A stretch of 64,000 nt of DNA, taken from positions 62,001 to 126,000 of the forward strand of contig NZ_LMPJ01000009.1 of the NCBI RefSeq assembly GCF_001424585.1, read 5' to 3'. A program made the position numbers and the translations under genes. Each line of letters begins with the position of its first letter. The stretch's first letter is position 1. This document shows positions 31,900 to 35,514 of this stretch, one piece after another. The notes under the pieces were generated by a model. It ran no database searches. It was not told where the DNA came from and was given only the letters and a program-made list of their open reading frames with translations. Origin of the DNA: Chryseobacterium sp. Leaf180. GTDB taxonomy: Bacteria > Bacteroidota > Bacteroidia > Flavobacteriales > Weeksellaceae.

Positions 31900-32538
31900 A
31901 TGAATTTAGATTACATCGTACGCGAACCCGAACATATCACACCTCAGACGAATATTTTATTTATGCTTCACGGCTATGGCAGCAATGAGCAGGATCTTTT
32001 TGCATTTCGCGAAGATTTGCCAAAAGACTGGATTCTCGTGAGCTTTCGAGCACCGTACAAAACCCAGTTTGAAGGATTTTCCTGGTATGATATTGATTTC
32101 ACTGATGCTGAGAAATTTGTAAATGTTGATCAGGCCAAAGAATCGCTGAAAGATTTAATGGAAAACATCATGGCAATCATCAACCGTTATGGGATTACTG
32201 ACGGCAAAACGCATCTCGCCGGTTTCAGCCAAGGCGGAATATTGTGCTACAGCCTTGCTTTACAGTATCCTGAACTTTTCAATAAGGTTGCGTGTTTAAG
32301 CTCTTATCCGGAAGAAAAACTTCTGACAAATATTGTTAAAGAGAAAAAGAAACTGGAGAATCTGCGCTTTTTTGTTTCTCACGGTTCTGATGATGCAGTT
32401 ATTCCTATCGACTGGGGGAAAAAAGCCGCTGAACTTTTATATGATTTAAGCTGCTATTTTACTTTTAGAGAATACATGAGCGGCCACGGCGTCAATCAAA
32501 AAAACTACAAAGATCTGATGGAGTTTTTCAATAAATAG
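31900..32538 (+). CDS. Phospholipase/carboxylesterase-type alpha/beta hydrolase
   Basis: 212 residues, cytosolic. LFMLHGYGSNEQDLF gives the oxyanion-hole HG motif, GFSQGGILCYSLAL the nucleophile elbow (GxSxG), HGSDDAVIPIDWG the acid Asp, and MSGHGVNQKNY the catalytic His. This is the layout of the YpfH/Est carboxylesterase group, which hydrolyses short acyl esters. Substrate unknown; no helpful neighbours. Confidence 0.9.
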   Translation: MNLDYIVREPEHITPQTNILFMLHGYGSNEQDLFAFREDLPKDWILVSFRAPYKTQFEGFSWYDIDFTDAEKFVNVDQAKESLKDLMENIMAIINRYGITDGKTHLAGFSQGGILCYSLALQYPELFNKVACLSSYPEEKLLTNIVKEKKKLENLRFFVSHGSDDAVIPIDWGKKAAELLYDLSCYFTFREYMSGHGVNQKNYKDLMEFFNK

Positions 32539-32602
32539 ACCTCCTATAAATTAAAATAAATTTTTAGTCTACTAAAATTATAGACTTAACGAAAAATTAA
32601 TC

Positions 32603-32610
32603 TATATTTG
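32603..32610 (+). promoter_or_regulatory. Probable -7 promoter element of the leader/NIL unit
   Basis: TATATTTG, an exact TAnnTTTG match, 20 nt before the leader-peptide ATG at 32631. A TTTG box at the right distance is not seen. Confidence 0.5.
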
Positions 32611-32630
32611 CAGCGTAATAAGTTTTGGAA

Positions 32631-32720
32631 ATGAAGACAGTACAATCAGTATACAACAAATGTAATAGACACATCACGAATATGATGCGATGCGGCGTGC
32701 CTTTGTATACAGATTTTTGA
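32631..32720 (+). CDS. Leader peptide of a putative sulfur-amino-acid attenuator, 29 aa
   Basis: 29 codons starting ATG AAG ACA GTA and ending TGA at 32718-32720. It contains Cys11, tandem Met18-Met19 and Cys21 (NMMRCG). GTATACAA (32649-32656) can pair with TTGTATAC (32703-32710). GCCTTTG (32699-32705) can instead pair with TAAAGGC (32745-32751), which is the 5' arm of the terminator. Stalling at the Met-Met-Arg-Cys codons would sit between the first pair and favour the antiterminator. The downstream gene encodes a methionine-linked NIL domain, which fits. Translation is inferred. Confidence 0.55.
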   Translation: MKTVQSVYNKCNRHITNMMRCGVPLYTDF

Positions 32721-32746
32721 GGATGAACCCAATTTTTAATACTCTA

Positions 32747-32776
32747 AAGGCTTTACGTTTCGTAAGGCCTTTTTTA
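32747..32776 (+). terminator. Attenuator terminator before the NIL-domain gene
   Basis: AAGGCTTTAC, loop GTTTC, GTAAGGCCTT, then a T-rich run: a 10-bp stem with one T-G pair. It lies between the leader peptide and the NIL gene ATG at 32801, so readthrough is needed to express that gene. Confidence 0.75.
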
Positions 32777-32800
32777 ATTTTAATCTTAAATGAAAAGGTA

Positions 32801-33091
32801 ATGAAAACAACCACAGATTTTTCTGCAGAAGCGGAAACTGAAAAGCAGATGCTTTTCCCGATGTATGAGGTAGAACTAAATGAAGATTTTGCCCTTGAAC
32901 AGATTTTGAATAAGATTCAAAATGTTTTTGGTGTCAATTATCTTTTGGTGAAGGCAGACATTTCGTACAGGGAAAATCAGAATTTCGGTTCGTTTCTGAT
33001 TCATTTAAAAGGCGAAAAGGCTGATAATCTTGAGGTAATTTATTATTTAAACCAAAACAGAATTACCAATACCTTCCGAGGTTTTGCATGA
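32801..33091 (+). CDS. Stand-alone NIL-domain protein
   Basis: 96 residues from ATG at 32801 (MKTTTDFSAEAE). The frame is open farther upstream to 32690, but that part encodes the attenuator terminator and is not protein. MYEVELNEDFALEQILNKIQ, FGVNYLLVKADISYRENQ and NFGSFLIHLKGE follow the NIL pattern (beta-alpha-beta-beta, with GsLxxxLxG). NIL is the methionine-sensing domain of MetN transporters and some ferredoxins. Here there is no ATPase, so it may act as a small methionine-binding regulator. Its control by a Met/Cys-rich leader supports that link. Confidence 0.75.
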   Translation: MKTTTDFSAEAETEKQMLFPMYEVELNEDFALEQILNKIQNVFGVNYLLVKADISYRENQNFGSFLIHLKGEKADNLEVIYYLNQNRITNTFRGFA

Positions 33092-33171: not shown

Positions 33172-35514
33172 TTATTCTCTGTTTTTCAACATAATCCAAC
33201 CCGAATAATTCATCTGGGTTTTCGATCTGTCATATTCAAAATTGAATTTGTACCAATACGTTGCGGTAGAAAGTTTTTTACCACCAATGGTTCCATTCCA
33301 GATCGGTTTTTCTTTGCTGAATCTAAATAATTCTACACCGTAACGGTCGTAGATAGAACCTGTAAAGTTTTTGAATTTAACCAAACCTGTAAGATCAAGG
33401 ACATCATTCACACCATCTTGGTTTGGCGTAATAATATTATTAATCTGGAAGGTAAACACTTCTAAACTCCCAGCACAGCTTGTTCCTACAACACGTACAT
33501 TTACTTTATATGTTGTGTTGTCATTAAGGTTTGTGAAAATATTCGAAGTTTGCCATGCGCCACCTTCCAAAGAATATTCTAATGTTCCCAGAACATTATT
33601 TTTCGGTGGATTGTAAGCAGTTACGGTTAAAGTTTTATTGGCGTAATTGGTTGCTGTAATAAATGGTGATGCAGCAGCGACAACTTTTGCTGAAAACGTT
33701 TTAGAACAGATTCCGTTGTTGATTGTCACTGAATAAGTTCCCAATTCGTTTACAGTAATCGTTCTGGTTGTTGCGCCTGTGCTCCAAAGATACGTGTAAC
33801 CGCTTCCTGCACCGGCATCCAAAGTTACATTATCACCGATACAAACTTCTACATCAGCTAACGTTGTTACAGGCTGAGGAACCACTTCTACGGTCACGCT
33901 TGCAGGAATTAAAGATTTACATCCCAGCGCTCCAATCGCATATACAGTAAAAGTCGTGGTCTGAAATAAAGTTACGGTTTGCGTATTTCCCGTTCCTGAA
34001 AAATTACTCCATTCGTAAGTTACACCATTCGCAGCAGTCAATGTAACCGATTCGCCCTGACATATTCTCACTTTATTTACAGTTAATCCTGCAACCGGAG
34101 CCGCTTCTCTTTTTAAAGTAAGTTTTACAAGTTTACTACAGAATCCACCGTTTGATACTACGACGTGCAAAATCTGATTATTGGTTCCGTTGTAGTTTGC
34201 CGGATTTGTAATAAAATTATTATTCTGAGCAACAGCATCTGCCTGATTTACATAAAATTTGAAAACTGCAGTTGGCGTAAAACTTAAAAGGGGTTGAGCC
34301 GCAACAAGATCAAAAGTGGTAATATCCGGTGTCGAACAAAGCAAAAGTGTATTGTCATGTGCCTCTGGCGTTGTTCCTCCGTTAATTTCTATAGAAGCAG
34401 AACCTGGACAAGGATTCCCCGGAACACTTACTTCAATTTTATAAATACCCGGCTGAGTTGCTGTAATTGAATTTGTGATAGCACCAGGAACTACAACTCC
34501 ATCTTTATACCATTTGTATATGAGGTTTGGCCCACTTGTAGATGCTGTGATTACTTGTGGTACATTGTCGCACACATTAATCTCTGCCGGCAACTCTGCA
34601 CCAGAAGGATCTAAAAGTTTTACACCAATGTCAAACGAACCTGCTTCCAAAAACACAGCAGAATCATAACTGTTGTCACGAGCATCTGCGATCACCATTT
34701 TTATATGGTAAGACTGGCCGGGAATAACGGTTGCTTCGGCAGTTAATGGAATTGTTCTTCCGTAATAATTAATCTGATTTGGCGGCAAAGAACCAAAAAA
34801 TGCAGCATTGATCGGTCCGCAGGAAAAAAGAGGATCGGCTGGAACGATATTAGTCGCAGAAACCGGACCTGCTCCACCTGGAAGAACCGCTAAATTTGTA
34901 TACGTTGAACCTGCGATGTTTGGTTTCAAAAGTAAAGCAAACGCATCATCATAATTTGAGCAGGGAAATCCTCCGGTATATTCTTCTGAAGCAAAAATAT
35001 ATCTAAATTTCATCTGAGAACTTGTCGGTACGAAATCAAATTCCAATACAGCAGCATCATTCAGCGTTTGCGTAGTTCCAATAGCAGCAACCAAATCAGG
35101 GTCACTTCCACCTCCATTTATATTACCTAGAACATCTGTTTCTGCAAAATTACCTGCTCTTCTTGCAAAGCCTGTTGTTAATACGATACCTTCAGCAAAA
35201 GGAAAAGTGGATGTCGATTTATTAAAATAACCCCAAAAACGGTCAGCATTCGTAACAGGTTGATTAGGACTTACCGTAACATTTGAGATGTTCGGTGTGC
35301 CGCATGATCCGGATGTTCCCACTAAAACATCGGTCACAAGCTGTGCCATTGTATAATTGCTCGCGGGATATGGTGGAACGTTAACATCAATAAAATCTCC
35401 CGCTTTAGCTGAAAGGGACAGATTCTTTTTTGCAGGCGGCCTGTATGGCGAAGTCTGCGACAAAAATGTACCAAAAGATCCTAAAAACAGAAACAAAAGT
35501 ATACTTCTCCTCAT
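33172..35514 (-). CDS. T9SS type B surface protein with choice-of-anchor L domain, copy 1
   Basis: 780 residues. Signal peptide ending near GTFLSQ; a choice-of-anchor L domain over about 40-295 (DRFWGYFNKSTSTFPFAEGI and FRYIFASEEYTGGFPC are typical); then Ig/PKD-like beta modules, including one copy of the GLTVNKVRICQGESVTL type; and a C-terminal type B sorting domain from about 692 (NIITPNQDGVNDVLDL ... SGWIMLKNRE). The domain directs export by the type IX system and attachment outside the cell. It is the last of three tandem paralogues and has the fewest modules together with copy 3. Confidence 0.9.
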   Translation of the reverse strand: MRRSILLFLFLGSFGTFLSQTSPYRPPAKKNLSLSAKAGDFIDVNVPPYPASNYTMAQLVTDVLVGTSGSCGTPNISNVTVSPNQPVTNADRFWGYFNKSTSTFPFAEGIVLTTGFARRAGNFAETDVLGNINGGGSDPDLVAAIGTTQTLNDAAVLEFDFVPTSSQMKFRYIFASEEYTGGFPCSNYDDAFALLLKPNIAGSTYTNLAVLPGGAGPVSATNIVPADPLFSCGPINAAFFGSLPPNQINYYGRTIPLTAEATVIPGQSYHIKMVIADARDNSYDSAVFLEAGSFDIGVKLLDPSGAELPAEINVCDNVPQVITASTSGPNLIYKWYKDGVVVPGAITNSITATQPGIYKIEVSVPGNPCPGSASIEINGGTTPEAHDNTLLLCSTPDITTFDLVAAQPLLSFTPTAVFKFYVNQADAVAQNNNFITNPANYNGTNNQILHVVVSNGGFCSKLVKLTLKREAAPVAGLTVNKVRICQGESVTLTAANGVTYEWSNFSGTGNTQTVTLFQTTTFTVYAIGALGCKSLIPASVTVEVVPQPVTTLADVEVCIGDNVTLDAGAGSGYTYLWSTGATTRTITVNELGTYSVTINNGICSKTFSAKVVAAASPFITATNYANKTLTVTAYNPPKNNVLGTLEYSLEGGAWQTSNIFTNLNDNTTYKVNVRVVGTSCAGSLEVFTFQINNIITPNQDGVNDVLDLTGLVKFKNFTGSIYDRYGVELFRFSKEKPIWNGTIGGKKLSTATYWYKFNFEYDRSKTQMNYSGWIMLKNRE

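Follow-up and report, generated by a model that had tools for sequence, protein, structure and literature searches.

The window, by which we mean the whole stretch of 64,000 nucleotides of Chryseobacterium sp. Leaf180 DNA that was analysed, probably contains a diverged Met/Cys leader-peptide attenuator of metN. The importer gene has been lost except for its NIL domain, which is retained behind the same promoter, leader and terminator. Judged by sequence comparison, the leader, terminator, promoter and gene are homologous to their counterparts in relatives, in which the terminator covaries and an antiterminator is conserved. A preliminary description of the locus had proposed that a stand-alone NIL-domain gene is preceded by an attenuator unit with a Met/Cys leader peptide. 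This unit is borne out: its promoter, leader and terminator are those of a conserved family, and the layout recurs in other genera.

Layout of the locus and origin of the NIL gene

The locus is flanked on one side by an esterase-like gene (31900-32538, identified by eye) and on the other by a large reverse-strand gene (33172-35514). The promoter is of the Bacteroidota type, with a -7 box TATATTTG (32603-32610, forward strand) in the TAnnTTTG form common to the relatives. It is overlain by a putative operator, AGTCTAC-N7-ATAGACT (32566-32586), similar to a palindrome in the relatives' leader promoters. The leader ORF MKTVQSVYNKCNRHITNMMRCGVPLYTDF (32631-32720, forward strand) has 29 codons, among them Cys11, Met18, Met19 and Cys21, and is homologous to the metN leaders of Chryseobacterium. 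The codons Met18-Met19-Arg20-Cys21 (32682-32693, forward strand) are the probable stall site and align with the Met-Met...Cys core of the relatives. An intrinsic terminator (32746-32776, forward strand), consisting of a 12-pair stem at 32746-32772 and a T tail, is located only about 28 nt ahead of the ATG of the NIL gene. The -7 box, the leader frame with its four Met/Cys residues, the pairing arms and the ATG at 32801 all lie where the preliminary description had put them, as does the terminator, a 12-pair stem and T run just before this ATG. None of the Rfam elements searched for (T-box, SAM riboswitches and others) gave a gathering-score match in the window.

The gene itself (32801-33091, forward strand) encodes 96 residues that match the Pfam NIL domain (PF09383) with an E-value of 6.5e-8 and 32.8 bits, against a cut-off of 24. 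The MetN importer ATPase model TIGR02314 gives a weak C-terminal match of 21.3 bits against a cut-off of 499.7, and residues before about 235 are missing. The protein is 43% identical to MetN residues 235-342. This alignment extends 11 codons 5' of the ATG (PFLILILNEKVM against PIIKQFLNSGVM), and the gene therefore starts at a methionine internal to MetN. A NIL-only gene of Pseudoflavitalea starts at the same point and is preceded by an in-frame fragment of MetN (FIQQFVNTKVM, 53% identity). A tree of 26 NIL segments places the window gene with nine Chryseobacterium MetN sequences (96/97), on a long branch (1.3). By these comparisons, the gene is a MetN with the ATPase part deleted. Its earlier description as a stand-alone NIL-domain gene is correct as to the domain but misses that this is really a truncated MetN inside a unit that formerly controlled metN. 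The genome is 99.94% complete, and no other NIL match and no MetQ were found in it; MetN was sought by way of its NIL domain.

The NIL frame looks selected. It contains no stops and has 43-46% amino-acid identity to six MetN, with identities of 52-57, 68-72 and 30-41% at codon positions 1, 2 and 3. Neutral simulations produced about six stops, with 0.05-0.3% of runs stop-free and amino-acid identity of at most 38%. Part of the apparent selection may predate the loss of the ATPase part.

The protein belongs to the same domain family as the C-terminal NIL (C2) domain of MetN (PDB 2qrr, 3dhx, 3dhw). It differs from these structures in having no ATPase part and a leucine at the position equivalent to E. 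coli Asn295. Replacement of Asn295 by Ala is reported to remove L-Met binding at the NIL domain of E. coli MetN (PMC12357092). The equivalent residue is Leu in the window and Gln in one Chryseobacterium MetN (L017), as read by eye from the profile alignment. Methionine binding by the window protein is doubtful because of this leucine. The view of the gene product as a methionine binder thus keeps its family match, while binding is not assured.

A close search with the NIL protein among the named genomes found no relative, and the NIL-only arrangement was not seen in any other Chryseobacterium among the 50 genomes with NIL matches. Most sampled Chryseobacterium carry another stand-alone NIL family, with proteins of about 100 residues (L034-L049). 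It was rejected as the orthologue of the window gene: it shares no neighbours, no Met/Cys leader was seen with it, and it falls on another branch of the tree.

A leader family upstream of metN

As sole query, the leader peptide gave no convincing homologue beyond the window in 197 genomes of the family. Two weak matches (L002, L003) were discarded, as the scanner saw no leader there. The leader family was revealed only because a profile of metN leaders was used. Leaders clearly resembling that of the window are located directly before metN in 6 of the 29 first-seen relatives, for example MKMKTKFRYNSMREMHISFMMMYCCMPLYADFCG, then AAAGGCTTTACCACGTTGTAGAGCCTTT. A profile built from seven leaders, the window's among them, matched 160 of 173 Chryseobacterium genomes (the window's counted) at E≤0.1 and 145 at E<0.001. 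Four of the 13 unmatched genomes were examined (G163, G145, G183 and G193). G163 was additionally matched by a 20-leader profile (A4). The other three have no metN and carry only a paralogous NIL gene, and the seven-leader profile matches none of them.

The leader accompanies metN. A NIL match is present in 50 genomes of the genus, and 46 of these carry a full metN. Comparison of places puts the leader upstream on the same contig in 45 of the 46; in the remaining one (G072) it lies on another contig. The fiftieth genome is that of the window. Among 29 relative loci with long flanks, metN is the next gene in 19 and follows after about 1 kb in 10. Across 109 relative loci, the gene after the leader is metN in 53 and starts like EamA in 56, as classified by sequence patterns and by eye; two EamA-like genes of other genera are EamA by Pfam. 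At EamA-type loci metN comes next in all ten that could be checked far enough.

Including the window, we examined 110 leader loci, 30 from the profile search and 80 more that were fetched. All 109 relative peptides contain Met-Met. The core is variable, since Met-Met-Met occurs in 75 and Cys-Cys in 67 of them; Cys-Met-Pro is found in 95. The Met-Met pair is mostly 15 codons ahead of the stop (85/109). Peptide conservation peaks at the Met/Cys core and at the last residues, and these overlap the RNA pairing described below. Of the 101 leaders with Met-Pro following the core (L054-L163), 97 encode this proline by CCT. This preference hints at a further constraint on the RNA, GCCT with AGGC, in addition to the conserved antiterminator; kinship and codon bias may also explain it.

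The promoter is conserved as well: in 107 of 109 relatives, a TAnnTTTG box lies no more than 90 nt from the start codon of the leader. Palindromes resembling AGTCYAC-N7-GTRGACT, searched as a degenerate pattern with at most one mismatch, occur in 101 of the 109 leader promoters, and a reversed-pattern control found none. The window palindrome is one of three one-mismatch sites in its own genome. At two mismatches this genome shows no enrichment (9 sites against 23 for the reversed control). The same palindrome also overlies 10 of 16 promoters of the second stand-alone NIL gene in the genus (L034-L049). From its sequence and positions, it is a putative shared site of a regulator acting at the leader/metN and other NIL promoters. 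A further one-mismatch palindrome (C11:136395-136415, L211) is located shortly before a gene for a 300-residue protein, probably a membrane protein.

Membership of the window in this family is indicated by a covariance model built from 26 relatives, with the window left out. It matches 32673-32776 with 59.3 bits (E 1.5e-10), and the runner-up in the window scores 26.6 bits (E 0.0011); these E-values are rough. By sequence homology, the region is a diverged member of the Chryseobacterium metN leader family. It has a short ORF with regulatory amino-acid codons, whose translation is predicted, and an intrinsic terminator between leader and gene. The leader is shorter than those of the relatives, and its core reads MMRCGV.

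The probable switch in the relatives and its altered copy in the window

The scanner finds a terminator in 105 of the 110 leader loci, and the other five loci did not enter the fold counts. When 82 distinct relatives were aligned with the window, 99.2% of the terminator cells were paired and 31 were double-changed, and none of 500 shuffles was as good. The 12-pair stem of the window is perfect: bases on its loop side have changed and are still paired.

In a conserved antiterminator, GTGG(T)...CCTT is paired to AAGG...(A)CCAC of the terminator 5' arm. Its strand, GTGGxTGACCTT, overlaps the last codon and the stop of the leader. Paired cells amount to 89.3%, compared with 36-54% in slid controls. 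Six cells are double-changed, a number equalled in 1 of 500 shuffles. The covariation is weak, because the slid controls show 3 to 12 double changes and two of them equal the antiterminator's covariation score. Clear compensations are GGAG/CTCC and CATGG/CCATG, and the antiterminator in the relatives rests on conservation together with a few such changes. When folds were compared with shuffles, it ranked in the best 5% in 0 of 26 sampled relatives by energy and in 13 of 26 by pair count. With a ribosome footprint of 15 nt assumed, a simulated stall at the last Met-Met pair frees RNA that forms on average 10 pairs with the arm, and at least 7 in 88 of 104 loci. A simulated ribosome at the stop codon abolishes the antiterminator (mean -0.25 kcal/mol, against -9.3 with the Met stall).

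In classical attenuators of the trp/his type, ribosome stalling at regulatory codons chooses between terminator and antiterminator. In the Chryseobacterium leaders, by contrast, the antiterminator strand lies on the leader stop codon, and a ribosome there would mask it directly; masking is proposed because of this overlap. We infer that the relatives respond to stalling as follows. With plentiful Met-tRNA and Cys-tRNA, the ribosome would reach the leader stop codon and cover the GTGGxTGACCTT strand. The terminator would then form and transcription would end. If Met or Cys is short, the ribosome would stall some 9 to 15 codons ahead of the stop, on the Met-Met...Cys core. The freed strand would pair with the terminator 5' arm, and RNA polymerase would read on into metN.

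The conserved antiterminator is broken in the window, where GAGG faces CGTT and GAGGATGAACCC (32719-32730, forward strand) is a degenerate remnant of the strand in alignments A3 and A6. An antiterminator that excludes the terminator was thus found conserved in the relatives, with weak covariation, and not in the window. With this strand lost, the switch of the window is either rewired or decaying. The altered switch might still act, perhaps through GCCTTTG (32699-32705, forward strand) and TAAAGGC (32745-32751), and the former could replace the lost strand. In silico, this pairing gives -10.3 kcal/mol with the RNA from 32697 free and the 3' arm of the terminator not yet made. A free end at 32697 fits a stall at Met18, not at Cys21, under the 15-nt footprint.

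The preliminary description had drawn this pairing as the antiterminator and had opposed to it a protector duplex of GTATACAA (32649-32656, forward strand) with TTGTATAC (32703-32710). Both pairings are present in the sequence. As the switch, they are not supported, and on their own they are no better than chance. The fold of the whole leader is better than that of all but 3 of 200 dinucleotide shuffles (z -2.35). Free window RNA from 32700, however, pairs with the terminator arm no better than 118 of 200 shuffles, and from 32697 shuffles are as good in 225 of 500 cases by pairs and in 73 of 500 by energy. GCCTTTG recurs, as GCCTTT, in 29 of 109 relatives; the antiterminator conserved among the relatives uses the stop-codon region of the leader. 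At the protector place, an equal search gave an 8-pair duplex in 8 and 7 pairs in 30 of the 109 relatives, and no conserved separate protector hairpin was found in their leaders. In view of the relatives' stop-codon-region antiterminator and the chance-level duplexes, the drawn pairings were rejected as the conserved switch. Alignment of the upstream regions, the check that had been suggested, shows the Met/Cys codons kept and the terminator covarying, with a conserved antiterminator other than the one drawn. What shows the element to be real is its homology, not these pairings.

A real possibility, which we nevertheless hold to be somewhat improbable, is that the leader and its terminator are what remains of the lost metN operon and are now decaying. 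In that case the switch would be dead, and the NIL gene, if expressed, would depend on read-through or on the operator alone. The loss of the conserved antiterminator strand, the shorter leader with MMRCGV in place of the relatives' core and the shuffle-level pairing are all as expected of a relic. Against this, the promoter, the operator-like site, the open leader frame and the perfect 12-pair terminator have all been kept, and the NIL frame looks selected. Very unlikely is that the Met/Cys-rich peptide acts as a small protein in its own right, such as one that binds metals or thiols, and that the position of the terminator is incidental. The peptide is indeed recognisable at the amino-acid level across the genus, but it is best conserved at the Met/Cys core and in its final residues, where it overlaps the RNA pairing. 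Between genera the peptides differ greatly, whereas the Met/Cys codons and the terminator that follows them persist. About as unlikely is that the hairpin at 32746-32772, which lies about 207 nt past the stop codon of the esterase-like gene and in the same direction, is a mere terminator of that gene with a NIL promoter between 32772 and 32801, given that the homologous hairpin of the relatives sits between leader and metN or EamA-like gene, that little room is left before the NIL ATG and that a conserved promoter precedes the leader. We retain the diverged metN attenuator as the preferred reading.

Occurrence beyond Chryseobacterium and relation to known systems

Among the named genomes, the best 80 of 121 NIL-encoding loci were scanned, and a leader with a terminator was found upstream in 69. 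Judged by pattern, the core is of the Met-Met or Cys-Cys type in 68 of these leaders; it reads MIMYNC in the other (L239). Reading of the remaining loci adds nine leaders: three from Elizabethkingia, two from Chryseobacterium and one each from Sediminibacterium, Pseudoflavitalea, Cloacibacterium rupense and UBA1937. The hairpins of these were inspected except that of one Elizabethkingia locus (L222), and the leaders of C. rupense and UBA1937 have only three Met/Cys codons beyond the start. No leader was seen at NIL loci L050, L053, L195, L196, L205 and L206, and the contigs of L252 and L284 are too short to judge. NIL/MetN is rare in the class (8 of 346 genomes). Outside the family, the covariance model R1 gives matches at E above 1e-4. 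Viral contigs, searched for the terminator of the leader, gave no match.

NIL-only genes are located behind Met/Cys leaders in six genomes: that of the window, C. rupense, UBA1937, two Edaphocola and Pseudoflavitalea. That all six go back to one event is disfavoured (AU p 0.029), but the test is weak: it used short rows, with a long branch for the window, and omitted two long ones.

Two leader-terminator units can occur in tandem. This is seen in two Edaphocola species (L218, L219), before a DUF4395 gene and the NIL-only gene, as well as before EamA in G126 (L193) and before metN in G880 (L202). The second unit of G126 matches the Chryseobacterium covariance model R1 with 60.9 bits. A profile of the first tandem leader gave five strong matches in the 197 family genomes, all upstream of metN, and ten weaker ones (E 0.01-0.05). 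At tandem loci the first peptide has Cys-Ile-Gly near its end, and its terminator arm contains CCGAT. In distant genera (L050, L053, L218), a DUF4395 gene lies directly ahead of a stand-alone NIL gene. This adjacency, assigned by Pfam for L218 and by eye for the others, suggests a functional link.

The metL leader of Streptomyces lividans (MSTTSDRTPATEATTTPGARCMCRRMCAF) comes nearest as a precedent, being likewise a short peptide with Met and Cys upstream of met importer genes, metNIQ (PMC8079986). As reported there, it differs in being actinobacterial, in its leaderless transcript and in that no typical Rho-independent terminator was found; the likeness considered here is one of anatomy. Actinobacterial cys-operon leader peptides have runs of Cys codons in a similarly short upstream ORF, for which the report describes no terminator hairpin found (PMC1262725). 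They precede cys operons and cbs, not an importer. Within Flavobacteriia, Flavobacterium psychrophilum is reported to show signs of leader-peptide attenuation ahead of operons for amino-acid biosynthesis (PMC9723704); the word "methionine" is absent from the main text of that paper, and its passages on attenuation name no Met/Cys leader or metN. The preliminary description knew of no such attenuator in Flavobacteriia. This stands for the Met/Cys type, of which we found none in the Bacteroidota literature among the matches listed in open-licence papers, and must be qualified by the report of leader-peptide attenuation in F. psychrophilum. As far as could be seen, the class of mechanism is known, and the leader family, the antiterminator on the stop codon, the tandem copies and the retention on NIL-only genes are new.

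A bolder proposal, which we consider rather unlikely, is that a sulfur-amino-acid attenuator of MetN, sometimes in tandem, is widespread in Bacteroidota. Organisms losing the importer would repeatedly keep the attenuator and the NIL sensor as a free, trans-acting regulator of some other sulfur process, induced by starvation.

In the relatives, the leader family provides a concrete candidate control circuit for methionine uptake, in a phylum for which no Met/Cys leader attenuator was found in print among the open-licence papers listed. Its logic is simple, with the antiterminator strand placed on the leader stop codon. The NIL-only genes show a recurrent fate of MetN, in which the pump is lost and the regulatory domain is kept together with its leader. 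This retention points to a function of the free NIL domain.
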